Source: Sulfitobacter sp. EhC04 (GTDB taxonomy: Bacteria; Pseudomonadota; Alphaproteobacteria; Rhodobacterales; Rhodobacteraceae). From it: a stretch of 64,000 nucleotides of DNA. The stretch lies in assembly GCF_001650875.1 (NCBI RefSeq), contig NZ_LXYI01000016.1:1-64000 (forward strand), given 5' to 3'. This document shows positions 28,475 to 63,382 of this stretch, in pieces. Position numbers and translations under genes: made by a program. Each line of letters opens with the position of its first letter. Position 1 is the first letter of the stretch. A model generated the notes under the pieces. The model had not been told where the DNA came from. It saw only the letters and a program-made list of their open reading frames with translations, and ran no database searches.

Positions 28475-30970
28475 TCACCCGTCGACCCGAATGGTCGCGT
28501 TCTTGGGATCATAGGGGCTGTCCTCGACCACCACTGCATCCCAAAGCTGATCGAACATCTTGATCTTCAGCTTCGTGCCCACCTCGGCGTGTTCCGGCTT
28601 TACATAGCCCATGCCGATGCTCTTGCCGAAGGCCACCGAATAGCCACCCGAGGTCAGACGCCCGGTGCGCGTGTCACCGGCATAAAGCACTTCGCGGCCC
28701 CAGGGGTCTGCATCGTCCGGCCCGTCGATCAGCACCGTCACGCATTTCGCGCGGATGCCGTGATCGGCCATCGCCTGCTTGCCGTGAAATTCCTTGTTCA
28801 GATCGACAAAGCGCGGCAGATCGGCCTCCAGCGGGGTCGCGTCACGGCCCAACTCATTGCCAAAGGCGCGGTAGCTCTTTTCCTGCCGCAGCCAGTTCTG
28901 TGCCCGCGCGCCGACCAGCTTCATCCCATGCTTCTCGCCCGCTTTCTCAAGTTGGTCGAAGAGGTAGTTCTGCATCTCGATCGGGTGGTGCAGCTCCCAG
29001 CCCAGCTCGCCGGTATAGGCCACGCGGATCGCACGGACCGGGCACATGCCCAGCTCAATGTTGCGCATGGTCAGCCAGGGGAAGCGCTTGTTCGACAACA
29101 CCGTGTCGGGGTCCGCATCCTTGACGATCTCTTTCAGGACATCACGCGACTTTGGCCCGGCAATGGCAAATACGCCCCATTGCGTGGTGACATCATGGCA
29201 TTCGATATATCCGAACTCCGGCGCCTTGTCCTCGATCGCCTTGCGCAGGTAATCGCTGTCATAGGCTGTCCAGGCCCCGGCGCTCACAAGATAATATTCA
29301 TCTTCGGCCAGCCGCACGATCGTGTATTCCGTGCGCGTGGTGCCCGCCCCGGTCAGCGCATAGGTCAGGTTGATACGGCCAACGCTGGGCAGCTTGTTGC
29401 AGGTGAACCAATCGAGAAACTGCGTCGCCCCCGGCCCTTTGACCAGATGCTTGGTAAAGGCTGTGGCGTCGATCAGGCCCACACCCTCGCGGATCGCCTT
29501 CGCCTCTTCCACGGCATATTGCCACCAGCCACCCCGGCGGAAACTGCGCGCGTCATGGTCGTTGAACCCTGAGGGCGCGAAATAATTCGGGCGTTCCCAG
29601 CCGTTGACCCAGCCGAACTGCGCGCCGCGCGCGGCCTGCCGGTCATAAGCAGGCGAGGTGCGCAGCGGACGGCAAGCGGGGCGTTCTTCGTCGGGGTGGT
29701 GCAGGATATAGACGTGTTCGTAGGCTTCCTCGTTCTTGCGCGCGGCGAACTCGGTGGTCATCCAGTCGCCATAGCGTTTGGGGTCGAGCGACGCCATGTC
29801 GATCTCGGCCTCGCCTTCGACCATCAGCTGCGCAAGGTAATAACCGGTGCCGCCCGCCGCCGTGATCCCGAAAGAGAAACCTTCAGCCAGCCACATGTTG
29901 CGCAGGCCCGGTGCAGGACCAACCAGCGGGTTGCCGTCAGGGGTGTAGCAGATCGGGCCGTTGAAATCGTCCTTCAGCCCGCAGTTTTCGGCGGACGGGA
30001 TGCGGTGGTTCATCGCCATGTACTGATCCTCGATCCGGTCCAGATCCAACTGGAACAGATCGGCGCGGAAACTGTCGGGCACGCCGTATTCGAACCGCGC
30101 AGGTGCATTCGGCTCGTAGACGCCCAGAATCCAGCCGCCCCGCTCCTCGCGGACATAGCTTTGCGCATCGGCGTCACGGATAACCGGGTGCTCGACATTG
30201 CCCGGCTGCTTGCGGAACTCGACCAATTCGGGGTCCTGGTCCATGACGATGAATTGATGCTCGACCGAGATCGCAGGCATCTTTAGCCCCAACATCTTGG
30301 CCGTACGCTGCGCGTGGTTGCCGCTGGCGGTCACCACATGCTCCGCCGTGATGACGATCTGTTCGTCGGACGGCACAAGGTTGCCGCCCTTTTCGACCAT
30401 CTTCGTCGCGGTGACTTCCCAGGCCTCGCCGTTCCAGTGGAAGGCATCCGCCTGCCACTTGCGTTCGATCATCACGCCGCGCTGACGCGCGCCCTTGGCC
30501 ATCGCCATGGTCACATCGGCAGGGTTAATATAACCGTCGGTCTGGTGATAGATCGCACCCTTCAGGTCCTCGGTCCGGATCAGCGGCCACTTCGCCTTGA
30601 TCTGATCCGGCGTCAGCCACTCGTAGGGCACGCCGCAGGTCTCCGCGGTCGAGGCATAGAGCATGTATTCATCCATCCGCGCATCGGTCTGCGCCATCCG
30701 CAGATTGCCCACCACGGCGAAACCGGCATTCAGGCCGGTCTCCTCTTCCAGTGTCTTGTAGAACTTGATCGAATAGTCATGGATATGCGTGGTCGCGAAG
30801 GACATGTTGAAATAGGGCAAAAGCCCAGCCGCGTGCCAGGTGGAGCCTGACGTCAACTCGTCGCGCTCCAGCAGCATCACATCTTCCCAGCCCGCGCGCG
30901 CCAGATGATAGGCGATGGATGTCCCCACGGCACCGCCGCCGACGACCAGTGCTTTGACGTTTGTTTTCAT
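28475..30970 (-). CDS. Dimethylglycine/sarcosine dehydrogenase-like protein (FAD plus GcvT domains)
   Basis: An 831-residue fusion of an N-terminal FAD oxidoreductase and a C-terminal aminomethyltransferase (GcvT) domain, as in dimethylglycine and sarcosine dehydrogenases. These oxidise N-methyl groups and pass formaldehyde to tetrahydrofolate. Visible are GGGAVGTSIAYHLARAG near the start, GSTWHAAGLL with the His that carries covalent FAD in the family, and the GcvT part from about residue 430 (YFAPSGF, later YTGELGWELHHP). A GGGGAG ribosome site precedes the ATG. The substrate is not fixed by sequence. Sarcosine from the creatinase at 46001-47221 is one attractive candidate. Confidence 0.88.
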   Translation of the reverse strand: MKTNVKALVVGGGAVGTSIAYHLARAGWEDVMLLERDELTSGSTWHAAGLLPYFNMSFATTHIHDYSIKFYKTLEEETGLNAGFAVVGNLRMAQTDARMDEYMLYASTAETCGVPYEWLTPDQIKAKWPLIRTEDLKGAIYHQTDGYINPADVTMAMAKGARQRGVMIERKWQADAFHWNGEAWEVTATKMVEKGGNLVPSDEQIVITAEHVVTASGNHAQRTAKMLGLKMPAISVEHQFIVMDQDPELVEFRKQPGNVEHPVIRDADAQSYVREERGGWILGVYEPNAPARFEYGVPDSFRADLFQLDLDRIEDQYMAMNHRIPSAENCGLKDDFNGPICYTPDGNPLVGPAPGLRNMWLAEGFSFGITAAGGTGYYLAQLMVEGEAEIDMASLDPKRYGDWMTTEFAARKNEEAYEHVYILHHPDEERPACRPLRTSPAYDRQAARGAQFGWVNGWERPNYFAPSGFNDHDARSFRRGGWWQYAVEEAKAIREGVGLIDATAFTKHLVKGPGATQFLDWFTCNKLPSVGRINLTYALTGAGTTRTEYTIVRLAEDEYYLVSAGAWTAYDSDYLRKAIEDKAPEFGYIECHDVTTQWGVFAIAGPKSRDVLKEIVKDADPDTVLSNKRFPWLTMRNIELGMCPVRAIRVAYTGELGWELHHPIEMQNYLFDQLEKAGEKHGMKLVGARAQNWLRQEKSYRAFGNELGRDATPLEADLPRFVDLNKEFHGKQAMADHGIRAKCVTVLIDGPDDADPWGREVLYAGDTRTGRLTSGGYSVAFGKSIGMGYVKPEHAEVGTKLKIKMFDQLWDAVVVEDSPYDPKNATIRVDG

Positions 30971-39183: not shown

Positions 39184-40362
39184 TCAGCTTGGGGACATGC
39201 CCCGCAACCGCTCAGACCGGCGGCGCAGCAATTCCAGCGTCGTCAGCAAGAGGACAGAGATCACAACCAGCAGGGTGGCGACCGCCAGAATGGTCGGGCT
39301 GATTTGTTCGCGCAACCCAATGAACATCTGCCAGGGCAAGGTCTTCTGCCCCGCTGAGCCCACAAAGAGCACCACCACCACCTCGTCGAAGGACGTGATG
39401 AAGGCAAACAGCCCGCCCGAGATTACCCCCGGCAGGATCAGCGGCATTTGCACCTTGAAGAAGGTCCGGATCGGCGAGGCCCCCATATTGGCCGCCGCCC
39501 GCGTCAGCGAGCGGTCAAAGCCCACCAGCGTCGCCGTCACGGTGATGATCACGAAGGGAATGCCAAGCGCCGCATGCGCGAGCACCACGCCGATATAGGT
39601 GCCCTGCAACCCGATGCGGCTGTAGAAAAAGTACATGCCCGCCGCCGAGATGATCAGCGGCACGATCATCGGAGAGATCAGGATTGCCATGATCGCCCGC
39701 CGGAAGGGGACATGCGGCTGGCTCAGCCCGATGGCCGCCAGCGTACCGAAGCCCACCGACAACAGCGTCGCGACCGGTGCGATCATGACCGAGTTGCGCA
39801 GCGCGTTCTGCCAGTCTGAACTGTTGAAGAAGTCGCGGTAGTGCTTCAGCGAATAGCCCGCCGGATCGAATCGCAGCATTTCCGGCGTGAAGGTAAAGAA
39901 GTTCTCGGCGTTGAAGCTCAATGGCATGACGACAAGAATCGGCGTGATCAGGAACACCAGGATCGCCCCGCAGATCACCCGGAAGGCAAAGTGCCACAGC
40001 ACCTGCCCCGGTGTCAGATAGGGCGGCAATTTGCGCCTGTAGCGGCCTTCGTAGAGCCAGAAACTGAACCAGGAAAAGAACCAGCCGAACAGCGCGCCGA
40101 TCACCAGCGCCGGGATACCACCCAGCAGGAAACCGATGATCGCCAGCAGCACGACAGAGCCCCACATGCCAGCCTTTTCGGCCTTGATGACCTGCGTCAG
40201 CACAAATGCCAGCGCGCCCATCGCGATGGCCCCGACGATGATGCCCAGCAACCCGCTGCCCTGTGCGGTCCCGACAAAGAGGCCCGCAAGTGCCCCTGCG
40301 GCGGCCACGACAGAAACATAGAACGACACCGGCGTGCGGCTGATCGGCGTGAGTGCAGTCAT
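39184..40362 (-). CDS. ABC transporter permease, PotC-like, with extended N-terminus
   Basis: Membrane subunit of a spermidine/putrescine-type importer. The C-terminal two thirds is a normal PotC-like permease, with the EAA-type loop ALTRAAANMGASPIRTFFKVQ and several helices. About 120 extra residues at the N-terminus add three hydrophobic stretches (about 15-35, 40-60 and 68-100) not found in ordinary PotC, bringing it to 392 residues. Last gene of the creatinase-aminotransferase-transporter run on the minus strand. Confidence 0.87.
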   Translation of the reverse strand: MTALTPISRTPVSFYVSVVAAAGALAGLFVGTAQGSGLLGIIVGAIAMGALAFVLTQVIKAEKAGMWGSVVLLAIIGFLLGGIPALVIGALFGWFFSWFSFWLYEGRYRRKLPPYLTPGQVLWHFAFRVICGAILVFLITPILVVMPLSFNAENFFTFTPEMLRFDPAGYSLKHYRDFFNSSDWQNALRNSVMIAPVATLLSVGFGTLAAIGLSQPHVPFRRAIMAILISPMIVPLIISAAGMYFFYSRIGLQGTYIGVVLAHAALGIPFVIITVTATLVGFDRSLTRAAANMGASPIRTFFKVQMPLILPGVISGGLFAFITSFDEVVVVLFVGSAGQKTLPWQMFIGLREQISPTILAVATLLVVISVLLLTTLELLRRRSERLRGMSPS

Positions 40363-40366
40363 GGTC

Positions 40367-42061
40367 CTAGCCCCCCAGTTTCACGTTATCAATGCCGACG
40401 ATCTTGTCGTAGGCCCAGTAGAGCGCCAGAACGACCGCCAGCAGAATCGCCCCAAGCGCGGCCGCAAGGCCCCAGTTGAGCGAGCTGGAAATATGATAGG
40501 CGATCCGGTTCGAGATGAACGTGCCTGTTGTACCGCCCACGATCTCGGGCGTGATGTAGTAACCGATGGACAGGATGAAGACGAGGATCGACCCCGCACC
40601 GATGCCCGGCACCGACTGCGGGAAGTAGACCCGCCAGAAGGCCGTCCAGTTCGTTGCGCCCAGACTTTTGGCCGCGCGCAGAAAGGCTGGCGGAATCGTC
40701 GCCATCACCGAATAGAGTGGCAGGATCATGAAGGGCAGCAGGATGTGCGTCATCGCGATGATCGTGCCGGTCTGGTTGTTGATCAGCGCCAGACGGTTCA
40801 CGTCAGAGACAATGCCGAGCCAGACCAGCGTGTCGTTGATGACACCCTGCTGTTGCAACATCACCTTCCAGGCCGAGGTCCGAACCAGCAGCGAGGTCCA
40901 GAAGGGCAACAGCACCAGGATCATCAGCAGGTTCGCGGTGCGCGCGGGCAGGTTCGCCAGCAGCCAGGCCACCGGATAGCCCAGCAGGATGCAACTGCCG
41001 GTGATCATCAGCGACATGAACAGCGTCCGCAGGAACAGCGTGCCATAGATCCGCTGGTTCTCCGGGCGCAACTCGGCCCCGTCGGGACTTTTCTGCATAT
41101 CGACCGCATTCAGGAAATAACCGTTGGTGAAAGGGCCCGAATAGGTCTGGATCGTCTCCCAGATCGGGATCTCTCCCCAGTCGTTGTCGACCTCGTTGAA
41201 AGCAGCGGCGTAATCCACGGTTTCGAAGCCTGCGGCGGCAGTGGCGGCGGCCTTGATCTGTGCGGCGGCGGGGCCGCTATATGCCGTGATCTGCTGCGCG
41301 GTCGGGCCGGTCAGGTCGTCGTAGAACGAGGAATAGATCAGCGCCCAGGGGTCTTCCGTATAGAGGTTGTCCTCGTCCTCGTACTGGACGAAGTCGGCAA
41401 AGATCTCGTATTTGGCGGCGGTCTGCGGGAACAGATCTTCGATGCCCTCGCGCATTTCAAAGGCAGGTTGATTATCGCCCGAGGCCTTGTCCCATGCCAG
41501 TATCTCGGCCAGCCATTCGTCGGAGCCAAGGAAGGCGTTCCAGTTCTCGCCCTGCTTCCAGAAATCATCGAAGTCCTCGAACTGGTCCTGATAGACCTCG
41601 CCCATGTCGCCAACACCGCGCCCGGATTTGCGGAACAATGAGGATGCGCCGGTCAATTCGTAGTTGAGCCGGGAACCAAGGCGGGTATGCAGCTTGCGCT
41701 CCTGCGCGATGAATATGTCTTCGTAAAGTGCCTTGTAGACCGGCGCGCCGGGGGTCTGCCCGGACCCGGCTTCCCAGTCTGCCAGCGCTTCGGTGGTGCG
41801 CGGCAGGGTCTGGGCCACGATCTGGTTTTCGACCGAGCGGAACAGCATGTCCGCAATCGGGGCGATGAAGGTGACAAGAACAAAGATGAGAAGCGGGGCG
41901 ATCAGGATCAGCGCGCGCAGCTTCTGACGCCGCAGGGCGCGATTCAGGCTGCGTTTCAACGAAGTACCGTCGGCGGCGCGGATCTTTCCGTCGGATTTAC
42001 CCGCCCCCTGATCGGGAGAATCCTGGGGGATCGGCGCGGTCTTTTCGGTCACATCGCTCAT
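40367..42061 (-). CDS. ABC transporter permease, PotB-like, with a large extracytoplasmic insert
   Basis: A 564-residue permease, about twice the usual length of PotB. The first helix is near residues 48-74 (LILIAPLLIFVLVTFIAP). The remaining helices and the EAA-type loop FLRAAKSLGATNWTAFWRV come after about residue 345. The roughly 265 residues between are hydrophilic and acidic, with several aromatic and Asp/Glu-rich stretches, and would face the periplasm. No named domain is recognised there. The stop lies four bases before the PotC-like gene begins. Confidence 0.87.
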   Translation of the reverse strand: MSDVTEKTAPIPQDSPDQGAGKSDGKIRAADGTSLKRSLNRALRRQKLRALILIAPLLIFVLVTFIAPIADMLFRSVENQIVAQTLPRTTEALADWEAGSGQTPGAPVYKALYEDIFIAQERKLHTRLGSRLNYELTGASSLFRKSGRGVGDMGEVYQDQFEDFDDFWKQGENWNAFLGSDEWLAEILAWDKASGDNQPAFEMREGIEDLFPQTAAKYEIFADFVQYEDEDNLYTEDPWALIYSSFYDDLTGPTAQQITAYSGPAAAQIKAAATAAAGFETVDYAAAFNEVDNDWGEIPIWETIQTYSGPFTNGYFLNAVDMQKSPDGAELRPENQRIYGTLFLRTLFMSLMITGSCILLGYPVAWLLANLPARTANLLMILVLLPFWTSLLVRTSAWKVMLQQQGVINDTLVWLGIVSDVNRLALINNQTGTIIAMTHILLPFMILPLYSVMATIPPAFLRAAKSLGATNWTAFWRVYFPQSVPGIGAGSILVFILSIGYYITPEIVGGTTGTFISNRIAYHISSSLNWGLAAALGAILLAVVLALYWAYDKIVGIDNVKLGG

Positions 42062-42150
42062 CGGGGTGTCCTTCGCGGGGAATTTGGGCAGGCCGGACCA
42101 AGGGTCCAGCCTGCGAAGGGCGGGCCGAGAATGGCCCGCCCTGGTTCAGC

Positions 42151-43245
42151 TTATTGCGCGAGCCATGCCTGGAACTTCGCGTCGATGTCGTCGCGATAGT
42201 CGGCCCAGAACTCGTAGTTGTAGAGGAACGTGTTGCCAGCGTTTGCCGGATCGGTCGGCATGTGCTGCTTCATGTCCTCGGGCACCAGCGGCGCGGACGA
42301 CTGGCGTGCCGGACCGTAGGAAATGTATTTGGCCTGATCGGCCAGACGCTGGGTGTCGGTCGCGAACTTGATGAAGTCCTTCACACGGTTCAGGCGCGCC
42401 TCGTCCAGACCTTCGGGAATGATCCAGCCGTCAAGGTCAAAGACCTGCGCGTCCCACATCATGCCGACGGGCTGATCCTGCTCTTCGATGACCGAGAACA
42501 GGCGACCGTTGTAGGTCGACCCCATGAAGACTTCGCCATCCGCCAGAAGCTGGGGCGTATCCGCACCGGCCGACCACCAGATCACGTCATCCTTGATGGT
42601 GCCGAGCTTGGCCAGCGCCTGCTCCTGACCTTCTGGCGTCGCCAGCACGTCATAGACTTCGTCCTTTGCAACGCCGTCACAGAGCAGCGCCCATTCCATG
42701 TTGTTGATCGGACGCTTTTCCAGCGCGCGCTTGCCCGGATATGTCTCCAGATCGAACACGGAGCAGATTTCGGTGGGTGCCTCAGCGCCTTCCGGCACCA
42801 TATCCGTGCGGTAGCCGAATGTGGTCGAATAGACGATCTGCGGGATATAGCAGTCCGACACGATCAGGTCACCGAAATCATCTTCTGCCGATGTGCCGTC
42901 GTCGCCTTCGGCAAGCAGCTCGTTGGGCTCATATTCCATCGCCAGGCCTTCGTCGCACAGGCGAATGGCGTCAGACGCCACAACGTCAACGAGATCCCAG
43001 GTGATGTTGCCCGCTTCGTTCATCGCGCGCAGCTTGGCCACGGCTTCGTTGGAGCTTTCATCCCAGACGACGTTCACTTCGGGGTGCATTTCCTGATAGG
43101 GTTCGACATAGGCTTTCAACTGGCTGTTCTGGTAGGCACCGCCCCAGGATACGATGGTCATGTCGTTGGACATTTCCTGTGCCAGGGCAACGCTTCCGAC
43201 AGCACTGAGCGCGGTCGAAGCAAGTAGCATTTTGGTGAATTTCAT
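42151..43245 (-). CDS. Periplasmic substrate-binding protein, PotD-like
   Basis: A 364-residue type II periplasmic binding protein. The signal peptide is MKFTKMLLASTALSAVGSVA, cleaved near ALA-QE. The mature part begins MTIVSWGGAYQNSQLKAYVE, typical of the polyamine-type family. The ATG at 43245 has a GGGAGA ribosome site. Encoded between the ATPase and permeases of the transporter. The ligand is unproven; the neighbouring creatinase suggests creatine or a related guanidino compound. Confidence 0.88.
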   Translation of the reverse strand: MKFTKMLLASTALSAVGSVALAQEMSNDMTIVSWGGAYQNSQLKAYVEPYQEMHPEVNVVWDESSNEAVAKLRAMNEAGNITWDLVDVVASDAIRLCDEGLAMEYEPNELLAEGDDGTSAEDDFGDLIVSDCYIPQIVYSTTFGYRTDMVPEGAEAPTEICSVFDLETYPGKRALEKRPINNMEWALLCDGVAKDEVYDVLATPEGQEQALAKLGTIKDDVIWWSAGADTPQLLADGEVFMGSTYNGRLFSVIEEQDQPVGMMWDAQVFDLDGWIIPEGLDEARLNRVKDFIKFATDTQRLADQAKYISYGPARQSSAPLVPEDMKQHMPTDPANAGNTFLYNYEFWADYRDDIDAKFQAWLAQ

Positions 43246-43357
43246 TTGGTATTCTCCCAAGTTTTTTCCCGTTCATTCAAATGAGGCCAATAACAACGGG
43301 TTTAGTTACGGGCCTCGTGTTCATCGCGGGCTTGCGCCTGCGACATGACACGCGCGC

Positions 43358-44458
43358 CTATGCGTCCAGCGCGCGGCAATCTTCTGCCTGCCAGCCAATC
43401 TCGACGGTCTGTCCCGGCTCCAGGCGGACCTGGTCAGGCGCGTTGCGTGTCTTGACGATGAAGCTGTCGTTCCCCGCGACCCGAAGCCGCGTGCGGAAGA
43501 TGTCCCCCATGTAGATGAATTCGAGCACCTCGGCCTGCAACGTATGTGCGCCAGGGTTGAGACGCTCCATGTTGAACTCAACCCGTTCCGGGCGGATCGA
43601 CAATTGCGTGCGCTCGCCTGCCTTGTCCACGTTGACCGGCATCGCGTCGATCAGGCTGCCATCGTCCAGCTTGACGACGGCCAGCCCGTTCGTGATTTCC
43701 TTGACCTCGCCCTGCAGCGTGTTGTTCTCGCCGATGAACTGCGCCACGAAACTGTTGCAGGGTTTCTCATAGAGCTCGTCCGGCGGAGCAAGCTGTTGGA
43801 TGCGGCCATCCTCAAAGACCGCAACGCGGTCCGACATCGTCAGCGCTTCGGTCTGGTCGTGGGTCACATAGACCACGGTGATCCCGAGGTCGTCTGCGAT
43901 GTGCTTGATTTCGAACTGCATGTGTTCGCGCAACTGCTTGTCGAGCGCGCCCAGCGGTTCGTCCATCAACACCAGATCGGGTTCGAACACCAGCGCACGG
44001 GCCAGCGCCACGCGCTGTTGCTGACCACCGGAAAGCTGTGCGGGGCGACGGCCACCAAAGGAGCCCATCTGCACCATGTCGAGCGCCCGCTTGACCTTGG
44101 CCTCGCGGTCTGACTTGCCCATCTTGCGCACTTCCAGCGGAAAGCTGAGGTTTTCCGCAATCGTCATATGCGGGAACAGGGCGTAGTTCTGGAACACCAT
44201 CCCGATGCCGCGCTTGTGGGGCGAGATGTTGTTGATCGGACTGCCGTCCAGCAGGATATCGCCGTGGGTCGCCGTCTCGAATCCCGCCAGCATCATCAGG
44301 CAGGTGGTCTTGCCGGACCCCGATGGCCCGAGCATTGTCAGGAATTCGCCCTTGCCTATCGAAAGGTTCAGGTCTTTGACCACAAGCGTTTCGCCATCGT
44401 AACTTTTCTGTACGTGATCGAACACGACGAAATCGCCGCCAGTGGCTTTCTCAGACAA
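43358..44458 (-). CDS. ABC transporter ATPase, PotA-like
   Basis: A 366-residue ATPase with Walker A GPSGSGKTT, signature [15 protein letters not shown], Walker B LVLMDEPLGALD and a C-terminal TOBE domain, as in polyamine importers. It starts with TTG at 44458, preceded by a strong GGGGAGG ribosome site (44465-44471 on the minus strand). It energises the two neighbouring permeases and is preceded by the aminotransferase gene. Confidence 0.9.
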   Translation of the reverse strand: MSEKATGGDFVVFDHVQKSYDGETLVVKDLNLSIGKGEFLTMLGPSGSGKTTCLMMLAGFETATHGDILLDGSPINNISPHKRGIGMVFQNYALFPHMTIAENLSFPLEVRKMGKSDREAKVKRALDMVQMGSFGGRRPAQLSGGQQQRVALARALVFEPDLVLMDEPLGALDKQLREHMQFEIKHIADDLGITVVYVTHDQTEALTMSDRVAVFEDGRIQQLAPPDELYEKPCNSFVAQFIGENNTLQGEVKEITNGLAVVKLDDGSLIDAMPVNVDKAGERTQLSIRPERVEFNMERLNPGAHTLQAEVLEFIYMGDIFRTRLRVAGNDSFIVKTRNAPDQVRLEPGQTVEIGWQAEDCRALDA

Positions 44459-44609
44459 ATCGCACCTCCCCAGGTGTTATGTTTGTTCCGCAATTTAAGC
44501 GGTGGTGTCTGCCATTTTGACAGGTTGGCTTATAAACAACCACATGCCCCACAGCTTTGCAACCGGGCAGGTGCAACAAGGCCCTGCTTCGAAAGCTACT
44601 GATGATTCT

Positions 44610-45986
44610 TTATGCGGGACCAAGAACCTCCACGACGGTTTCGGTCGTTTTTGCGACAATCTCGTCTGCCTCCGCTTCGGTCAGGCAGAAGGGTGGCGCA
44701 AAGCCGATGATATCACTTTGAGGCATCGCGCGCCCGATGACACCCTTTGAAAGCAGTGCGGCGGCCACCTGGGGGCCTATTTTCTTCGCGGGATCATAGA
44801 ATGCCCGGTCGCCCCGATTCTCGACCAGTTCAACCGCACAGAGCATCCCTGCCCCGCGAATGTCGCCCACATGGCGATGGTCGCCAAGCGCCGCCTGCAT
44901 CTTGCCGTGCAGATAGGCACCCACGGTTCCGGCATTCTCGACCAGCTTCTGGTCCTCGATCACCTGCAGGTTCGCGACCCCCGCCGCCGCCCCGATGGGA
45001 TGTGCGGAATAGGTCCAGCCGTGGCCGAGCGGGCCGTTTTCATCCGTCCCCTGCTCAAGCACCTTCCAGACCTTGTCGGACACGATGGAACCCGACAACG
45101 GCGCATAGGCCGAGGTCAGGCCCTTTGCGATGGTGATGAAATCCGGCTTCAGCCCGTAGTGATCGGACCCGAACATGCTGCCCAGACGCCCGAAGCCTGT
45201 CACGACCTCGTCTGCGATCAGCGCGATGTCATGCTTTTGCAGCACCGCCTGAATCGCATCCCAGTAGCCTGCGGGCGGCGGCACGATGCCCCCGGTGCCC
45301 AGAACCGGCTCCCCGATGAAGCCCGCGACGGTGTCGGCCCCTTCCCGGTCGATGATCGCTTCGAGGTCTGCCACGCAATGCGCCACAAACTCCGCCTCGG
45401 TCTGGTCAAGATTCTCGCGGCGGAAATAATCCGGCGCGACCGTATGCAGCACCCCCGCCATCGGCAGGTCGAACTTGGCATGGAACAGCCCCAGCCCGGT
45501 CAGCGAGCCGGTCATCAGCCCCGAGCCGTGATAGCCGCGCCAGCGGCTGATGATCTTCTTTTTCTGCGGTCGGCCCAGGATGTTGTTATAGTACCAGAGC
45601 AGCTTGATGATGGTCTCGTTCGCATCCGATCCGCCAAGCCCGAAATAGACCTTCGACATATGCGCGGGCGCGCGCTCCATCACCATCCGGGCCAGCGTGA
45701 TCGCAGCTTCGGTGCCGTGCCCGGCATAGGAATGGTAGTAGCTCAACTCATGCGCCTGCTTGGCAATGGCATCGGTGATCGCGCGCTGGCCGTAGCCCGC
45801 GTTCACGCAATAGAGCCCGGCAAAACCATCCAGGAGGCGGTTGCCGTCACGGTCGATGATGTGACTGCCCTCGGCCCCCTTGATGATCCGCGCCGGGCTT
45901 TCGCCGCGCGCATGCTGCGCCAGATGTGTGGACGGGTGAAAGAAATTCTCGCGGTCCCATTTGTCCAATACGTCGTTCGTCAGCAT
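44610..45986 (-). CDS. Class III pyridoxal-phosphate aminotransferase
   Basis: A 458-residue omega-amino-acid/amine aminotransferase. The N-terminal block is DGFAGLYCVNAGYGQRAI. The cofactor-binding features are LGGSDANETIIKLLWYY, LIADEVVTGFGRLG and the lysine in FITIAKGLTSAYAPLSG. Related Rhodobacterales enzymes transfer amino groups from diamines, beta-amino acids or taurine-like compounds to pyruvate. It starts 14 bases after the creatinase stop in the same operon, so it probably acts in the same catabolic route. Confidence 0.88.
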   Translation of the reverse strand: MLTNDVLDKWDRENFFHPSTHLAQHARGESPARIIKGAEGSHIIDRDGNRLLDGFAGLYCVNAGYGQRAITDAIAKQAHELSYYHSYAGHGTEAAITLARMVMERAPAHMSKVYFGLGGSDANETIIKLLWYYNNILGRPQKKKIISRWRGYHGSGLMTGSLTGLGLFHAKFDLPMAGVLHTVAPDYFRRENLDQTEAEFVAHCVADLEAIIDREGADTVAGFIGEPVLGTGGIVPPPAGYWDAIQAVLQKHDIALIADEVVTGFGRLGSMFGSDHYGLKPDFITIAKGLTSAYAPLSGSIVSDKVWKVLEQGTDENGPLGHGWTYSAHPIGAAAGVANLQVIEDQKLVENAGTVGAYLHGKMQAALGDHRHVGDIRGAGMLCAVELVENRGDRAFYDPAKKIGPQVAAALLSKGVIGRAMPQSDIIGFAPPFCLTEAEADEIVAKTTETVVEVLGPA

Positions 45987-46000
45987 GTTGCGCGTCCTTC

Positions 46001-47221
46001 TTATGCGTCGATGATGTTCGCTTCCGGGCCGTAGGCGAATTTGGTGATGTTTTCGGTGCGGTTACCGCCGACCACGAGGATGTCATGTTCGCGGTAGCCC
46101 CCTGCCCCGGCTGTGCCCTGCGGCACCCAGATCATCGGCTCCATTGACACCACCATGCCCGGCTCCAGAACGGTATCAACATCCTCACGCAGTTCCAACC
46201 CCGCCTCCCGGCCATAGTAATGCGACAGGATGCCGAAGGAATGGCCGTACCCAAAGGAACGATATTGCAACAGACCCTGATCCGCGAAGAAGCGGTTGAT
46301 CTCGTCGCAGATGCCCGAACAGGTGGCGCCGGGCCGGATCAGCGACAGGCCCAGCTCGTGCGCTGCCACGTTGGCCTCCCACATCCTCCGGCTGGTCTTG
46401 TCCGGCTCGCCCAGAAACAACGTGCGCTCCAGCGCGGTGTAATAGCCCGAGATCATCGGAAAGGTATTGAGGCTGAGGATATCGCCCTTTTGCAGCCTGC
46501 GTGTCGTGACCGGGTTATGTGCCCCATCGGTATTCAACCCCGACTGGAACCAGACCCAACTGTCACGCAATTCGCTATCCGGACGCGCGCGGGCAATCTC
46601 CAGCTCCATCGCGTCGCGGCCCGCCATGGCCACGTCGATCTCCCGCGTGCCCGCCTTGATCGCAGCGCGGATCGCTTCGCCGCCGTGGTCGGCAATGCGC
46701 GCACCCTCGCGGATCAGGGCGATTTCCTCGTCCGATTTCACCATCCGCGCGGCCATCGTATCCCCGGCAATATCCACCAGTTCCGGCGCGCCCAGCATGT
46801 CGGCAAGCGTGTCCCGCGCGGTCAGTGTCAGGTGATCTGCCTCGATCCCCAGCCGCCCTGCGCCGCCCGTCAGCCCCGCTACCGCGCGCCAGAAGTTGTT
46901 CCGCGCCCAGTCGGTATAGATCACATTATCCCCGTGCGACCGCCGCCAGGGCTGGCCTGCGTCGATATTGGCGCTGACGGTCGTGCAGGCGTCTTGTGTC
47001 ACGACGCAGCCATAGGGCCGCCCGAAACTGCAATAGAGAAAGCCCGAATAATAGGCGATGTTGTGCATCGAGGTCAGCAGCACGGCGGGAATGTCCCGCA
47101 CCGCCATGATGTCGCGCAGCCCGGCCAGCCGCCGGTCGTATTCGGCAGCCGAAAAGGGCAGCGGTGCCTTGTCGCCGTTGTGGCTGGTGAAGCTCTGCGG
47201 GCGGTTGGAAAGATCGGTCAT
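46001..47221 (-). CDS. Creatinase (creatine amidinohydrolase)
   Basis: Hydrolyses creatine to sarcosine and urea. The 406-residue protein matches remembered Pseudomonas creatinase over long blocks: YYSGFLYCSFGRPYGCVVT, SANIDAGQPWRR, FQSGLNTDGAHNPVTTRR with the catalytic His, FGYGHSFGILSHYYGREAG and PGMVVSMEPMIWVPQG. The aspartate metal ligands of M24 peptidases are replaced (ILSLNTFPM, TALERT), as in true metal-free creatinases. The ATG at 47221 is chosen because the open frame upstream to 47515 is unrelated. First gene of the minus-strand operon. Confidence 0.92.
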   Translation of the reverse strand: MTDLSNRPQSFTSHNGDKAPLPFSAAEYDRRLAGLRDIMAVRDIPAVLLTSMHNIAYYSGFLYCSFGRPYGCVVTQDACTTVSANIDAGQPWRRSHGDNVIYTDWARNNFWRAVAGLTGGAGRLGIEADHLTLTARDTLADMLGAPELVDIAGDTMAARMVKSDEEIALIREGARIADHGGEAIRAAIKAGTREIDVAMAGRDAMELEIARARPDSELRDSWVWFQSGLNTDGAHNPVTTRRLQKGDILSLNTFPMISGYYTALERTLFLGEPDKTSRRMWEANVAAHELGLSLIRPGATCSGICDEINRFFADQGLLQYRSFGYGHSFGILSHYYGREAGLELREDVDTVLEPGMVVSMEPMIWVPQGTAGAGGYREHDILVVGGNRTENITKFAYGPEANIIDA

Positions 47222-47408
47222 CGAAACATCCTCAATGGGACCCGGCGCGCTGTCCGCGTGCAGGTCAAAGAAAATATCCGGGCGTACAGGATGGGAAAAT
47301 GGCCGGGAATTGCGACGCCATCGCGGGCCATATGCAAAACTGGCTAATCTATTGTATGCGGTCCTGTCAACGCGTAGCCTCCGCTGACAACTGCAGGAGG
47401 CACCCCCC

Positions 47409-48596
47409 TTGACCCTCACCGATCCAACGCCGTTTTCGCCACAGGAATACGAGCGCCGCCTGTCCCTGACCCGTGCCGCCATGGGTCGCGTCGGCATTGA
47501 CGTGCTGATTGCCACGGACCCGTCGAACCAGGCCTGGTTGACGGGTTATGACGGCTGGTCGTTCTATGTCCATCAGGCCGTAATCGTACCGCTCGACGGA
47601 ACCCCCTTCTGGTGGGGCCGCATGCAGGACAGCAACGGTGCGCTGCGCACTGTGAACCGCGCCGTGACAGACGTGGAGTTCTACACCGATGGATTCGTGC
47701 AATCGACAGAGCGCCACCCGATGCAGGACCTCTCTGCCAAGCTTGCCGCGCGCGGATTGGCGCGGGGGCGGATCGGCGTCGAGATGGACAATTACTACTT
47801 CTCCGCCAAGGCCTATACGACGCTCCTCGACTCGCTCCCCGACGCAACGGTTGTGGACGCCACGGCCCTCGTCAACTGGCAACGCGCCATCAAGTCGGAG
47901 GAAGAACTGACCTTCATGCGCAAGGCCGCAACGATTACCGAGAAGATCACCCAGCTTGCCATCGACCGCGCGGCACCCGGCGTGCGCAAGAACGAACTGG
48001 CGGCAGAGATCACTGCGGCGGGGCTTACCGGCGTAGGCGAGACCTGGGGCGACTACCCCGCCATCGTACCGCTCATGCCCTCCGGCACCGACGCGGCCGC
48101 CCCGCATCTTACCTGGAACGGCGACAAGATGAAGACCGGCGAGGTGACGTTCTTTGAGCTTGCCGGTTGTTACCGCCGTTATCACGTGCCGCTGTCCCGC
48201 TCTGTCATGCTGGGCACCCCGCCCGACCACATCAAACGCGGCGAAGAGGCGCTGATCGAAGGGTTGGAGGCGGGTTTGGACAAGGCCCGCGCAGGCAACA
48301 GGACCCAGGACATCGCCAACGCGCTTGGGGCCGCGATGGACAAGGCAGGCATCGAACGCGGCGCGCGCTGCGGCTATTCCATCGGCCTCAGCTACCCGCC
48401 CGACTGGGGCGAACGCACCATGTCGCTGCGCCCAGAGGACGAAACCGTGCTGCACCCCGGCATGACCTTCCACTTCATGCCCGGCCTCTGGATGGAGGAC
48501 TGGGGACTGGAGATCACCGAAAGCATCCTGATCACCGAAGAAGGCCCGGCACAGCCATTCTGCACCATCGAACGCAAGCTCTTTGTCAAGGATTGA
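47409..48596 (+). CDS. M24-family hydrolase, ectoine hydrolase (DoeA/EutD)-like
   Basis: A 395-residue creatinase/prolidase-fold protein. LTGYDGWSFYVHQAVIVP, near the N-terminus, and GLSYPPDWGERTMSLRP are, from memory, like ectoine hydrolase DoeA/EutD, which opens the ectoine ring. Both aspartate metal ligands of M24 peptidases appear lost (FFELAGCYRRYHVPLSRS), so it is not a normal aminopeptidase. It starts with TTG at 47409 after AGGAGG (47395-47400). Divergent from creatinase and coupled to a deacetylase gene 2 bases later. Ectoine or another cyclic amidine is a plausible substrate. Confidence 0.8.
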   Translation: MTLTDPTPFSPQEYERRLSLTRAAMGRVGIDVLIATDPSNQAWLTGYDGWSFYVHQAVIVPLDGTPFWWGRMQDSNGALRTVNRAVTDVEFYTDGFVQSTERHPMQDLSAKLAARGLARGRIGVEMDNYYFSAKAYTTLLDSLPDATVVDATALVNWQRAIKSEEELTFMRKAATITEKITQLAIDRAAPGVRKNELAAEITAAGLTGVGETWGDYPAIVPLMPSGTDAAAPHLTWNGDKMKTGEVTFFELAGCYRRYHVPLSRSVMLGTPPDHIKRGEEALIEGLEAGLDKARAGNRTQDIANALGAAMDKAGIERGARCGYSIGLSYPPDWGERTMSLRPEDETVLHPGMTFHFMPGLWMEDWGLEITESILITEEGPAQPFCTIERKLFVKD

Positions 48597-48598
48597 CC

Positions 48599-49756
48599 AT
48601 GAGCCATCTCGACACAGCGACCGCAATCCTGTCCGACCTCATCGGCTATCCCACCGTGTCGTCGGACAGCAACCTTGCGATAATTGATGACCTCGCCGGT
48701 CGGCTGTCGGACGCAGGCGCGCGGGTGGATGTGTTTCACGACGACAGCGGGACCAAGGCCAACCTTTATGCCACAATGGGTCCCGACGCGCCGGGGGGCA
48801 TCCTGCTGGCCGGGCATACGGATGTGGTGCCGATCACCGATCAGATCTGGGCCAGCAACCCCTTTGCAATGACCGAACGGGACGGACGCCTTTATGGGCG
48901 CGGGACCTGTGACATGAAGGGCTTTATCGCTACCGCAGTCGCGCTGGCCCCCCTGTTCGCGTCGAAAGCCACCCGCCGCCCCATCCACTTTGCTTTCACC
49001 TATGACGAGGAGACCGGCTGCCTGGGCGCCAAGGCGCTGGCCGAGCAACTGGCAGCGCGCAGCGACCGTCCTGCCCTGGCCATCATCGGTGAACCCACCG
49101 AAATGCGGGTGATCGAGGGACACAAGGGTTGCTGCGAATACTCCACCCATTTCACCGGGCGCGAGGGCCACGGTTCTCTGCCGTACCTCGGGGTGAACGC
49201 GGTCGAATACGCCGTGCGCTATATCACGCGCCTGATGGAACTGAACGATGAACTGAAGGCCCGCGCCCCCGGCGGCAGCGCCTTCGACCCGCCGCACAGC
49301 ACCATAAACGTCGGCTCACTTCACGGCGGTGTGGCGCATAACGTGATACCGGGGTTTGCGACAGTGGAGTGGGACATGCGCCCTGTCCAATCCGCCGATT
49401 TCCACCACATCAATGCAACGATGCAGGACTACGCCGCCAATATCCTGCTGCCCCGGATGCGCGCTGTCTGGCCTGACGCAGATATCGTCACGGAGGTCAT
49501 CGGCGAAACCATCGGGCTGGAGGTCATGGCCGAAAACGCCGCCCGCGACCTTGTGCTGGAACTGACCGGCACGAACGGGACCGATGTGGTGTCCTTCGGA
49601 ACGGAGGCGGGTATTTTTCAGCAACTCGGCATGGCCGCCATTGTCTGCGGACCTGGGTCCATCGAACAGGCACATAAACCTGACGAATACGTCGAGACAA
49701 GCCAGCTTGCGGCCTGTATCACCATGCTGGAAGAGCTGGCAGACCGCCTGGGCTAG
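48599..49756 (+). CDS. M20-family deacetylase, acetylornithine deacetylase-like
   Basis: A 385-residue zinc-dependent amidohydrolase. The metal and catalytic motifs are ILLAGHTDVVP (His, Asp), GRGTCDMKGF, TYDEETGCLGA with the catalytic Glu pair, and GEPTEM. It begins at the ATG at 48599, two bases after the previous stop. Next to an ectoine-hydrolase-like gene it may remove the acetyl group from the ring-opened product, but the usual ectoine deacetylase DoeB is a different family. Confidence 0.87.
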   Translation: MSHLDTATAILSDLIGYPTVSSDSNLAIIDDLAGRLSDAGARVDVFHDDSGTKANLYATMGPDAPGGILLAGHTDVVPITDQIWASNPFAMTERDGRLYGRGTCDMKGFIATAVALAPLFASKATRRPIHFAFTYDEETGCLGAKALAEQLAARSDRPALAIIGEPTEMRVIEGHKGCCEYSTHFTGREGHGSLPYLGVNAVEYAVRYITRLMELNDELKARAPGGSAFDPPHSTINVGSLHGGVAHNVIPGFATVEWDMRPVQSADFHHINATMQDYAANILLPRMRAVWPDADIVTEVIGETIGLEVMAENAARDLVLELTGTNGTDVVSFGTEAGIFQQLGMAAIVCGPGSIEQAHKPDEYVETSQLAACITMLEELADRLG

Positions 49757-52582: not shown

Positions 52583-53890
52583 ATGGCCCGTGAATACCTG
52601 AAGAAAGCCACATTGACCGCAAAATCGGATGCCAGCGAGGTGCATGAGACGGTCAAGACGATCCTTGCCGATATCGAGACGGGTGGTGATGCCAAGGCGA
52701 TGGAATACGCGGCCAGGTACGATCGCTATGAGGGCAATGTCTTGATGACCGCCGAAGAGATCGAGGCGGCCTGCGCGCTGGTGCCGGAGAAGCTGAAGGC
52801 CGACATAAGGTTTGCCCATGACAACGTGAAACGCTTTGCCGAAAAGCAGAAAAGCACGGTGTCGGACATGGAGATCGAGATCGTGCCCGGCCTGATGGCG
52901 GGCCAAAAGGCCATTCCGGTGGATACCGCCGGCTGTTACGTGCCGGGCGGGCGTTACAGCCATATTGCCAGTGCGATCATGACCGTGACCACCGCCAGGG
53001 TCGCGGGTTGCCGCCATATCACCGCCTGTTCGCCGCCGCGTCCCGGTGTCGGCGTGGCCCCCGCCATCGTCTATGCCGCCCGCATCAGCGGCGCGGACAG
53101 GATTCTGGCAATGGGCGGGGTGCAGGGCGTGGCCGCGATGACCTTTGGTCTGTTCGGCCTGCCGCGCGCCAATATCCTTGTCGGTCCCGGCAACCAGTTC
53201 GTGGCAGAGGCCAAGCGCATCCTGTATGGTCGCGTCGGCATCGACATGATTGCGGGGCCCACCGACAGCCTGATCCTGGCCGATGCGCAGGCCGATCCAA
53301 TGGTTGTGGCGACCGATCTGGTCAGCCAGGCAGAGCATGGCCATAACTCGCCGGTCTGGCTGGTCACGGACGACCGCGCGCTGGCGGAAAAGGTAATAGA
53401 CCTGGTGCCGGGGCTGATCGACAATCTGCCTGATGTGAACCGCGAAAACGCCTTTGCGGCATGGCGCGACTATGCAGAGGTGATCCTGTGCGCGGACCGT
53501 GCGGAAATGGCCGCCTGTTCCGATGATTACGCACCTGAACACCTGACCGTGCAGGCCGGTGATCTGGATTGGTGGCTGGATCGGCTGACCTGCTATGGCT
53601 CGCTGTTTCTGGGCGAAGAAACCACCGTGTCCTATGGCGACAAGGCAACGGGGACAAACCACGTCCTGCCTACCTCCGGGGCGGCCAGCTATACCGGCGG
53701 CCTGTCGGTCCACAAGTACATGAAGATCGTGACATGGCAGCGCGCCACCCGTGAAGGCTCCAGACCCGTGGCCATTGCCACCGCACGCATTTCGCGGATG
53801 GAGGGGATGGAGGGGCACGCCCGCGCGGCGGATGTGCGACTGGCGAAGTATTTTCCCGCAGAGACCTTTGATCTGGCTGCCGATGGCTGA
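52583..53890 (+). CDS. hpsN: Sulfopropanediol 3-dehydrogenase (HpsN), HisD-like
   Basis: Oxidises (R)-2,3-dihydroxypropane-1-sulfonate (DHPS) to sulfolactate with NAD. The 435-residue protein belongs to the histidinol dehydrogenase superfamily (PVDTAGCYVPGGRYSHIAS, GPGNQFVAEAKRILYG, DYAPEHLTV). It differs from true HisD in blocks such as SGAASYTGGLSVHKYMKI. The biosynthetic his genes lie elsewhere in the window, and sulfopyruvate decarboxylase genes follow directly, which supports HpsN. AGGAA precedes the ATG. No hps transporter or regulator is visible nearby. Confidence 0.86.
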   Translation: MAREYLKKATLTAKSDASEVHETVKTILADIETGGDAKAMEYAARYDRYEGNVLMTAEEIEAACALVPEKLKADIRFAHDNVKRFAEKQKSTVSDMEIEIVPGLMAGQKAIPVDTAGCYVPGGRYSHIASAIMTVTTARVAGCRHITACSPPRPGVGVAPAIVYAARISGADRILAMGGVQGVAAMTFGLFGLPRANILVGPGNQFVAEAKRILYGRVGIDMIAGPTDSLILADAQADPMVVATDLVSQAEHGHNSPVWLVTDDRALAEKVIDLVPGLIDNLPDVNRENAFAAWRDYAEVILCADRAEMAACSDDYAPEHLTVQAGDLDWWLDRLTCYGSLFLGEETTVSYGDKATGTNHVLPTSGAASYTGGLSVHKYMKIVTWQRATREGSRPVAIATARISRMEGMEGHARAADVRLAKYFPAETFDLAADG

Positions 53891-61386: not shown

Positions 61387-62466
61387 GTGGCGACAGCCAT
61401 CAGTGTACGCAATCTGCGCAAGGTCTATCCGGGACAACCGCCCGTCGTCGCGCTGGCGGATGCCAGCATCGACATCAAGGACAACGAATTTTTCACCCTG
61501 CTGGGCCCGTCGGGCTGCGGCAAGACAACCCTGCTGCGGATGATCGCCGGGTTCGAGCATCCGACGGCAGGAAGCCTGACCATGCACGGTGAAAACCTGC
61601 TGGACCTGCCGCCCTACAAACGGCCGGTGAACACGGTCTTCCAAAGCTATGCGCTGTTCCCGCATCTGACCGTGGCCCAGAACATCGGTTTCGGTCTTGA
61701 GATGCTGGGCAAGCCCAAAGCGGAGATCAGGCAGACCGTCGATGAGATGATGGCGCTTGTGAAGATGACGGAGATGGCGGACCGCCAGACCGGCCAGATC
61801 TCCGGCGGCCAGCAGCAGCGGGTGGCACTGGCCCGTGCCTTGGCCCCCAAGCCGCGTGTGCTGTTGCTGGACGAACCGCTCAGCGCGCTGGATTTCAAAC
61901 TGCGCAAGGACATGCAGCTGGAACTCAAACGCCTGCAAAAGGAGACCGGGATCACCTTTGTCTTCGTGACCCACGATCAGGAAGAGGCGCTGACCATGTC
62001 GGACCGGATCGCGGTGATGAGCGCGGGCGAAATCCGCCAGATCGGCAACCCCCGCCAGATCTACGACCAGCCCGCTGAACGCTTTGTCGCGGATTTCATC
62101 GGGGATACCAATTTCCTGCCCGCCGAGGTGATCGACACTAAAGGGCAAACTGTCACGATACGCCTGTCATCGGGCAAAGAGATTGCGGCCCGCGCGGCAG
62201 AGGGCGGATCGCACAAGGGCAAGGTCACCCTCGCCGTGCGCCCCGAACACGCCAACATTGGCCCCGAGGCCGACGGTCTGCTCGGCGGCACGCTGGGCGA
62301 AGTCGTCTATTTCGGGACCGACACGCATTACCATGTGGCACTGGAGGACGGGACCGGCTTCGTCGTGCGGCAACAGAACCGCCCGGATGCGGCGGCCCAA
62401 TTTTCCACCGGCGACCGTGTCGGCGTGCATTTCGCACCCGGCATCGGCCAGGTCCTGAAGGATTGA
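61387..62466 (+). CDS. ABC transporter ATPase, polyamine-type (PotA-like)
   Basis: A 359-residue ATPase. Walker A is GPSGCGKTT, signature [14 protein letters not shown], Walker [13 protein letters not shown], followed by a C-terminal TOBE domain. It starts with GTG at 61387 after GGGGGA. It opens a second polyamine-type importer operon, distinct from that at 39184-44458, with the permease gene 4 bases on. Confidence 0.92.
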
Positions 62467-62470
62467 CCTG

Positions 62471-63382
62471 ATGGCCGATCTGTCCTCTGCCGCCGAGACA
62501 CAGGCCAGCCGCCGCCGCTGGCTGTTGCTGGCACCCGCCCTGTTCATCCTGGTCTTCGCCGCCGCCGGGCCGCTGCTGATCACGCTGGTCTATTCGTTCC
62601 TGACCCCCGGCGATTACGGCGGCGTCGAATGGCAGGCGTCCTGGCAGGCCTGGTTCAACGTCTTCATGGAGCGCGATATCTTTGACGACACGCTGGGCTG
62701 GTCGGACGCGCATCTGAGCATCTTCTGGCGGTCCGTAAAGCTGTCGCTGATGACCACGGTACTCTGCCTCTTCTTTGGCTTTCCCACCGCCTATTTCATC
62801 GCGACCCGCCCCAAGAAACAGCGCGACCTGTGGATGCTGCTGATCATCATACCGTTCTGGACCAACCTGCTGATCCGCACCTTTGCGGTGGTCGAACTGA
62901 TCCGGGCGGAAGGTACGGTCAACACGCTGCTGATCTGGCTTGGGATCATCGACTCGCCGATCCACATGCTGTTCACCGAATTCTCGATCCTGCTCGGCAT
63001 GGTCTATGTCTATCTGCCGCTGATGGTGCTGCCGCTCTATGCCTCGATGGAACGGCTGGATTTCAGCCTCGTCGAGGCAGGCTATGACCTTTACGCCACG
63101 CGCTTGAAGGTGTTGCGCCGGGTGATCCTGCCGCTGGTCAAACCGGGCGTGATCGCAGGCTCGATCCTTGTCTTCGTGCCGTCGTTGGGCGCTTACGTGA
63201 CGCCCCGCGTGATGGGCGGCGGCAACCAGTTGATGATCGGCAACCTGATCGAGCTGCAATTCGGCCAGGGGCGCAACTGGCCGCTGGGGGCCGCGCTGTC
63301 GATCACGCTGCTGGCAATCGTGATGGTGGCCCTGATGGCCTATGTCCGCGCCGCCGGAAATCAGGAGCCGCACCGTGTCTAA
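62471..63382 (+). CDS. ABC transporter permease, PotB-like
   Basis: A 303-residue membrane subunit of normal length for PotB. It has a first helix at about residues 18-42 (LLLAPALFILVFAAAGPLLI), five further hydrophobic stretches and the EAA-type loop SLVEAGYDLYATRLKVLRRV. Unlike the PotB-like protein at 40367-42061 it has no large insert. Its end overlaps the GTG start of the next permease. Confidence 0.92.
   Translation: MADLSSAAETQASRRRWLLLAPALFILVFAAAGPLLITLVYSFLTPGDYGGVEWQASWQAWFNVFMERDIFDDTLGWSDAHLSIFWRSVKLSLMTTVLCLFFGFPTAYFIATRPKKQRDLWMLLIIIPFWTNLLIRTFAVVELIRAEGTVNTLLIWLGIIDSPIHMLFTEFSILLGMVYVYLPLMVLPLYASMERLDFSLVEAGYDLYATRLKVLRRVILPLVKPGVIAGSILVFVPSLGAYVTPRVMGGGNQLMIGNLIELQFGQGRNWPLGAALSITLLAIVMVALMAYVRAAGNQEPHRV

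Follow-up and report, generated by a model that had tools for sequence, protein, structure and literature searches.

The canonical route of ectoine breakdown combines an EutD-type (DoeA) hydrolase, the deacetylase EutE (DoeB) and an Atf-type (DoeD) aminotransferase. In one survey, EutE is presumed to assist product release from EutD and the data set is described as taking only directly neighbouring eutD and eutE genes (PMC8739950); another describes a focus on genomes with EutD, EutE and EutB (PMC13188858). Because eutE was required beside eutD or EutE genomes were targeted, surveys of this design would miss loci with a different deacetylase. If EutE aids release from EutD, as presumed there, an unrelated replacement therefore makes this coupling directly testable.

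Here we describe a candidate for such a locus, at positions 39184-49756 of a 64,000-nucleotide stretch of Sulfitobacter sp. EhC04 (contig NZ_LXYI01000016.1, positions 1 to 64,000; the window). We consider it likely that this island brings two osmolyte-catabolic arms, for ectoine and for creatine, together at one site with an importer, that an M20-family deacetylase stands in for EutE, and that a conserved structured leader precedes the creatinase. Ectoine and creatine, both zwitterionic osmolytes, are common cell-protecting compounds, and their predicted breakdown genes lie here side by side in one marine bacterium. The genes of the island are as follows.

39184..40362, minus strand: ATP-binding cassette (ABC) importer permease 2, PotC-like (family searches, PF00528)
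40367..42061, minus strand: ABC importer permease 1, PotB-like, with a long N-terminal extension (family match at residues 337-554 of 564)
42151..43245, minus strand: periplasmic binding protein of the gamma-aminobutyric acid (GABA)/polyamine/opine group
43358..44458, minus strand: ABC importer ATPase, PotA subfamily (TIGR01187, 378.5 bits, cut-off 355.6)
44610..45986, minus strand: class III aminotransferase of the Atf/DoeD (ectoine) type (PRK07482, 790.5 bits, cut-off 687)
46001..47221, minus strand: creatinase (solved-structure matches, active-site residues)
47409..48596, plus strand: EutD2, ectoine-hydrolase-like M24 enzyme of an M20-linked clade (family searches, tree)
48593..49756, plus strand: M20 deacetylase, proposed EutE/DoeB replacement (Pfam M20, genome profiles)

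All eight open reading frames (ORFs) that an initial annotation had placed here were confirmed at their coordinates. The minus-strand order is creatinase, aminotransferase (after a gap of 14 bp), ATPase, binding protein and the two permeases; the EutD2 and M20 genes overlap by 4 bases and are divergent from the creatinase. The entire block is also present in two relatives (G027 and G013), which places it beyond chance, and it recurs minus the aminotransferase in G009 and, as far as the contig end, in G004. The annotation had read a creatinase, a class III aminotransferase and a polyamine-type importer as one block, with which the ORFs and family searches agree. It had also read an ectoine-hydrolase-like M24 protein with a deacetylase on the divergent side, and this is borne out by the match of EutD2 to the solved DoeA of H. 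elongata (6twk, 4.8e-147) and by the deacetylase passing the TIGR01892 cut-off.

In the scheme that we propose, EutD2 would open ectoine, and probably hydroxyectoine, to N-alpha-acetyl-diaminobutyrate, from which the M20 enzyme rather than EutE would take the acetyl group; the Atf-type aminotransferase would lead to aspartate semialdehyde, and the last step would fall to an Ssd-type enzyme from the genome's second, canonical ectoine cluster. The creatinase would convert creatine to urea and sarcosine, which urease and sarcosine oxidase, encoded at other sites in the genome, would take further, and a polyspecific GABA/polyamine-type importer may take up both solutes. The creatinase mRNA would begin with a structured leader in which hairpin 1 (UGGCG) and hairpin 2 (ACGCC) could pair loop to loop, and this leader may sense creatine and control expression.

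The predicted ectoine arm and its proposed M20 deacetylase

The deacetylase of the island, an M20 protein by Pfam, scored 385.7 bits against TIGR01892 (acetylornithine deacetylase; cut-off 297.7) and also exceeded the cut-off of PRK07522, and the EutE/DoeB family TIGR02994 was not among the best 25 of the 49 families in that search. Across one set of 140 genomes of the order, its distribution was compared with those of EutD (105 genes in 101 genomes) and EutE. The M20 cut-off was placed in a gap, with no rows between 1e-133 and 1e-110, and the EutE cut-off in a gap from 48% to 41% identity, leaving out seven rows of 37-41%. Of the 101 EutD-bearing genomes, EutE alone is found in 38, the M20 protein alone in 53, both in one (the window genome, G000) and neither in nine. 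M20 is thus found in 54 of the 101 genomes with EutD versus 1 of the 39 without it (G155), and EutE in none of those 39. For this distribution of the two deacetylases Fisher's test gives p 5e-18 (relatedness ignored), and both states coexist inside five genera of the sample (g1, g27, g45, g58, g78). The M20 type is the commoner of the two in this sample (54 versus 39 genomes). Since the M20 distribution tracks EutD, it contradicts the acetylornithine deacetylase label of the NCBI models.

A similar picture emerges from gene neighbourhoods. EutD2-type genes were defined by at least 62% identity, a line drawn after viewing the EutD list; of the 45 such genes in the 140 genomes, 35 have M20 adjacent and none has EutE adjacent. 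An unlinked M20 gene is present in the genome for eight of the ten that lack an adjacent one, and likewise for 11 of the 20 other EutD genes without a neighbouring deacetylase. In a genus sample of 36 genomes including its own, EutD2 was found in 14 genomes, canonical EutD in 18, both in the window genome only and neither in five; M20 lies beside all 14 EutD2 genes, and each of the 13 canonical loci for which wide flanks were retrieved carries EutE. A further set comprised 80 loci drawn from titled records as the best-scoring among the listed matches to an EutD2 alignment; within the available flanks M20 was present in 66 and EutE in none. Either ssd and asnC or eutB and eutC lie near EutD2 in 18 of these 80 loci, 12 of which have M20. 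One locus (L136) carries in a single stretch the importer, atf, ssd, asnC, eutC and eutB with divergent EutD2 and M20 genes; another (L208) has a full atf-ssd-asnC-eutC-eutB neighbourhood with EutD2 and M20, and loci of Rhizobium and Chelativorans (L194, L220) have a similar gene set.

EutD2 and the EutE-linked EutD group share 111 conserved positions, including E255, which we take to be a catalytic residue of ectoine hydrolase. Clear group-specific positions number two in the larger set (D243G and K322R) and four in the smaller one. A phylogeny of 107 EutD proteins contains a branch, supported at 98% in the Shimodaira-Hasegawa-like approximate likelihood ratio test (SH-aLRT), that separates the 14 EutE-linked rows from 93 rows without EutE, of which 79 are M20-adjacent and 14 have neither deacetylase. 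On the basis of the neighbourhoods, the tree and the 111 conserved positions, we read EutD2 as a hydrolase of ectoine and probably of hydroxyectoine and the M20 protein as the deacetylase that goes with it, both assignments resting on homology and genome profiles. The M20 protein may work like EutE without being EutE, and is best read as its replacement in what would be a new variant of the ectoine route.

The genome encodes a canonical ectoine cluster on another contig, with an aminotransferase, a succinate-semialdehyde-type dehydrogenase, a small protein, EutE (595 bits, cut-off 402.7), EutD (783.4 bits, TIGR02993 cut-off 613), EutC, EutB and a tripartite ATP-independent periplasmic (TRAP) transporter; the small protein, at the position of AsnC, had no family match at the threshold applied. 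The aminotransferase of the island shares 75% identity with that of this cluster, 70-78% with aminotransferases that lie in one stretch with EutD in relatives lacking creatinase there, and 70-75% with the full-length ones found in one stretch with EutD in loci L079-L091 (that of L083 is fragmented); those of L070, L071, L073 and L075 (36-37%, a polyamine-linked type) were not counted as Atf. The identities to the canonical-cluster copy and to the EutD-linked ones place it in the Atf/DoeD type, and its assignment to diaminobutyrate follows the role in ectoine breakdown published for that type (PMC5924519, PMC3187862). A role in creatine breakdown was rejected, since close homologues accompany EutD where the stretch has no creatinase.

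Creatinase and importer

The protein at 46001-47221 matches solved creatinases over its full length (1chm, 1kp0 and 7yto; for 1chm 8.1e-156, residues 8-404 of 406). The residues that we take to be the catalytic and substrate-binding ones of 1chm, F62, R64, H232, Y258, E262, R335, E358 and H376 (numbers in our alignment are one lower than these names), are invariant in 19 creatinase-family proteins, the window protein included, and in two solved enzymes. We therefore assign it as a creatinase (EC 3.5.3.3), predicted from these residues to hydrolyse creatine. The genome also contains urease and two full-length sarcosine oxidase alpha (soxA) genes above the curated cut-off. The initial annotation had suggested that sarcosine from the island could go to the dehydrogenase at 28475-30970; this gene is separated from the island by intervening genes and scores 173 bits against the sarcosine oxidase alpha cut-off of 1164, as one of several partial matches in the genome, so that with two better soxA genes elsewhere this destination is possible but not favoured. 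The protein itself is a flavin adenine dinucleotide (FAD)- and GcvT-domain dehydrogenase of the dimethylglycine/sarcosine type and belongs to a set of several paralogs that the genome encodes.

As judged from sequence, the importer belongs to a widespread GABA/polyamine type, and it is found beside either arm. At E up to 1e-90 its binding protein has matches, a weaker group included, in 312 of the 390 genomes covered in the order, and at 1e-130 in 90 of 140 genomes; a match at the stricter level lies within 15 kb of a creatinase in 21 of those 90 genomes and within 15 kb of an EutD gene in 21. A dedicated creatine importer was rejected on account of this breadth and of the equal association with both arms, and the proposal that the importer is dedicated to the island's substrates falls with it. 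The importer may still carry creatine; a Shinella plasmid (L326) encodes a creatinase with a creatininase and a polyamine-type binding protein, where the leader element described below is absent.

Several further genes were noted around such importers. In many relatives a protein of 96 amino acids is encoded between the binding protein and the first permease (L069:13900-14190, L092:13682-13972); there is none in the window. In some relatives a third M24 protein is paired with an EutA-like protein beside the same importer (L067:5705-7601, L069:5541-7343, L148, L152 and L155), a pair that is not seen in the window island; the EutA-like member reaches 156.8 bits where the EutA cut-off is 318, and the pair possibly serves another amidine or a hydroxyectoine function. 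In the window, 61387-63382 on the plus strand encodes two components, the ATPase and the first permease, of another polyamine-type ABC importer, and 52583-53890 a histidinol-dehydrogenase family protein (TIGR00069, 434.2 bits, cut-off 243.8).

A conserved candidate leader RNA upstream of the creatinase

Comparison of the divergent intergenic region in four genomes revealed two conserved blocks, which correspond to the hairpins of the following element.

47262..47338, minus strand: leader element of the creatinase, a candidate cis-regulatory RNA on the sense strand of that gene (covariance model, 49.3 bits; the window sequence is part of the model)
47312..47324, minus strand: core of hairpin 1, loop UGGCG
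47276..47292, minus strand: hairpin 2, whose CGCC is able to pair with the GGCG of loop 1
47326..47331, minus strand: 5′ strand (AUGGCC) of a possible outer stem round hairpin 1
47299..47304, minus strand: 3′ strand (GGCCAU) of the same possible outer stem

The hairpin-1 block was found with at most two mismatches in all 23 distinct creatinase upstreams and the hairpin-2 block with at most four in 20, with constant order and strand in all 23; in 89 upstreams of EutD2 genes without creatinase, the same limits gave one hairpin-1 block and no hairpin-2 block. Fetching 80 further creatinase upstreams yielded 104 regions representing 103 genes (one gene is present twice, as L069 and L156), and 86 of the 106 creatinase rows lie within the tested upstreams, several divergent copies (57-61%) being left out. 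The block pair, searched for in this order, was found in 101 of the 104 regions, or 100 of the 103 genes. A covariance model, which itself contains most of the sequences that it matched, gave 24 matches at E below 4e-7 in 2.75 Mb, all directly upstream of a creatinase (one gene twice), and nothing else below E 0.1. As a held-out test we examined five of the 419 plasmid records with a creatinase-like match, and three had a leader hit at the same place: Loktanella, Maritalea (Hyphomicrobiales) and, more weakly (5.7e-5), Paroceanicella. Searches of Rfam 15 returned one match for the window region at E up to 10, outside the element, and three for 20 leader regions at E up to 5, none near its family cut-off (that of L279 overlaps the element on the opposite strand). 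The leader is thus absent from Rfam 15; its novelty is claimed against that database alone, the literature not having been searched for creatinase leader RNAs.

On the creatinase strand, hairpin 1 of the consensus has GA and UC closing the loop UGGCG, and a linker of 17-60 bases leads to hairpin 2, of the form UCC-UGnACGCCG-GGA. The loop-1 GGCG is complementary to the hairpin-2 CGCC in 96 of 96 aligned leaders; these four loop-loop pairs never vary and so are uninformative either way. Aligned by sequence alone, the leaders show 96.4% pairing over the 14-pair structure; eight pairs vary on both sides, and the covariation score is 0.237, against 0.106 for shuffled alignments (none of the 500 reached the observed value), while no slid version exceeded 0.074. 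This final count omits four pairs of the first one, namely two wrong outer pairs of hairpin 2 (unpaired in 81 and 83 of 96) and two outer pairs of hairpin 1. In L282:158-235 an A-U pair replaces, by compensating change, the G-C pair that closes hairpin 1 in all the others; this leader was left out of the pattern-based alignment and the outer-stem counts, where hairpin 1 was misplaced, and the covariance model places it well. L246 and L296, judged by eye to be near-copies and for that reason omitted from the alignment (A4), are also recovered by the model. The outer stem around hairpin 1 is enriched without being universal: with a position limit, chosen after seeing the unlimited count, it was found in 40 of 98 leaders versus 18.6-20% of controls, and without the limit it was barely above controls. 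Folding z-scores of other leaders were -3.66 (L245), -2.99 (L303), -1.90 (L255) and -1.23 (L277). Masking of the Shine-Dalgarno sequence by hairpin 2, which by eye appeared strong in several leaders, was weak when counted. Conservation and covariation make the leader a strong candidate for a cis-regulatory RNA of a new kind that would act in creatine use, its transcription, ligand and mechanism being predicted.

Alternative explanations and comparison with known systems

The initial annotation had favoured a single undescribed route for one guanidino or cyclic amidine compound, with the island enzymes and importer acting in sequence. The genes are indeed adjacent here and, wholly or partly, in four relatives, and creatinase and EutD2 lie within 15 kb of each other in 8 of 140 genomes. 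Each arm, however, also occurs alone beside the same importer: importer, EutD2 and M20 without creatinase in L070-L073 and L075, and importer and creatinase without EutD2 in L092 and L093. The aminotransferase is of the ectoine type, and the leader follows the creatinase (hairpin-1 block in 23 of 23 creatinase upstreams versus 1 of 89 EutD2 ones). A single route is thus highly improbable; the island more probably combines two already known reactions in adjacent arms. We give as little credence to the M20 protein being an ordinary biosynthetic acetylornithine deacetylase that lies beside EutD2 by chance. It passes the cut-offs of TIGR01892 and PRK07522, as such an enzyme would, but arginine synthesis predicts independence from EutD and not presence in 54 of 101 EutD genomes versus 1 of 39 others, and M20 and EutE occur together in one genome only even when unlinked M20 genes are counted. 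Somewhat less remote, though still unlikely, is that EutD2 and M20 act on a cyclic amidine other than ectoine. EutD2 scores 582.9 bits against TIGR02993 (DoeA/EutD), below the cut-off of 613, it forms a separate clade, and the genome retains a canonical eut cluster too; on the other side, only D243G and K322R clearly distinguish the groups in the larger set, and EutD2 occupies the place of EutD within otherwise typical eut clusters. Besides this sub-threshold score, three observations weigh against an M20 replacement of EutE in ectoine breakdown: adding the seven distant EutE rows (37-41%) lifts the genomes with both deacetylases from one to six, nine EutD genomes, two of them EutD2 genomes (G182 and G156), have neither deacetylase, and the EutE group represents a single change on the EutD gene tree. 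We nevertheless favour M20 as the deacetylase of the ectoine arm.

For the leader, an operator in DNA, bound by a creatine regulator, would account for the dyad symmetry of both blocks and for the variable spacing of 17-60 bases between them. Order and strand are the same in 23 of 23 upstreams, however, the invariant loops are complementary, and the outer stem is enriched over controls. Across nine pairs on the creatinase strand, moreover, G-U outnumbers A-C by 33 to 5 (24 to 4 in 66 dereplicated rows), a bias that should not be expected of a DNA palindrome, though mutation bias could contribute. We regard the operator as rather improbable, if a serious contender. Several results speak against the leader RNA. 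With a tenth, poorly formed pair the bias drops to 37 versus 13 (26 versus 9 dereplicated), the window leader shows no folding advantage over shuffled sequences (z 0.99), and the Shine-Dalgarno masking amounts to 47 of 93 leaders versus 33% of 465 controls. Three of the 23 upstreams match the window hairpin-2 block only at six mismatches, at the same place, the leader was not found before three divergent creatinases (L320-L322, 57-62% identity), and the held-out plasmid records showed none at the Shinella and Arthrobacter creatinases. Returning to the candidate RNA, we tentatively suggest, with rather more doubt than confidence, that it is a riboswitch of a new class whose kissing hairpins sense creatine or a close product and control creatine use across the Rhodobacterales and on at least one Hyphomicrobiales plasmid. 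A creatine riboswitch of this kind would extend the known RNA sensors to a metabolite of major importance in animals and plankton, and could be used directly as a part in creatine biosensors.

Compared with the canonical EutD/EutE route, the island thus has the EutD-type hydrolase, a deacetylase and the Atf-type aminotransferase in common; it differs in that its deacetylase is M20 (ArgE-like) instead of EutE and its importer a GABA/polyamine-type ABC system, and in the window genome ssd, eutB and eutC sit in the canonical cluster on the other contig. Possible precedents exist for a non-EutE deacetylase: one study describes Bacillota clusters of eutD-eutC-atf with abgB and no eutE (PMC13188858), and another reports a methanotroph DoeB only 22% identical to that of H. 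elongata (PMC7192451). The Bacillota clusters resemble the island in missing EutE and, if AbgB is taken as a member of the M20 family, in having an M20 gene close by; they differ from it in lineage and synteny.

The binding protein belongs by fold and sequence group with the GABA receptors SAR11 PotD (8jv1) and Atu4243, with 36% identity to 8jv1 over the structural alignment. The creatinase has the same catalytic residues as the solved 1chm and 7yto enzymes and showed no difference from 1chm, 1kp0 and 7yto among the features checked; the leader element is the addition. The guanidine-II (mini-ykkC) riboswitch, which belongs to guanidino metabolism, likewise consists of two small hairpins whose loops are able to pair. 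The leader resembles it in this two-hairpin architecture with loops able to pair, and differs from it in its loops and stems.

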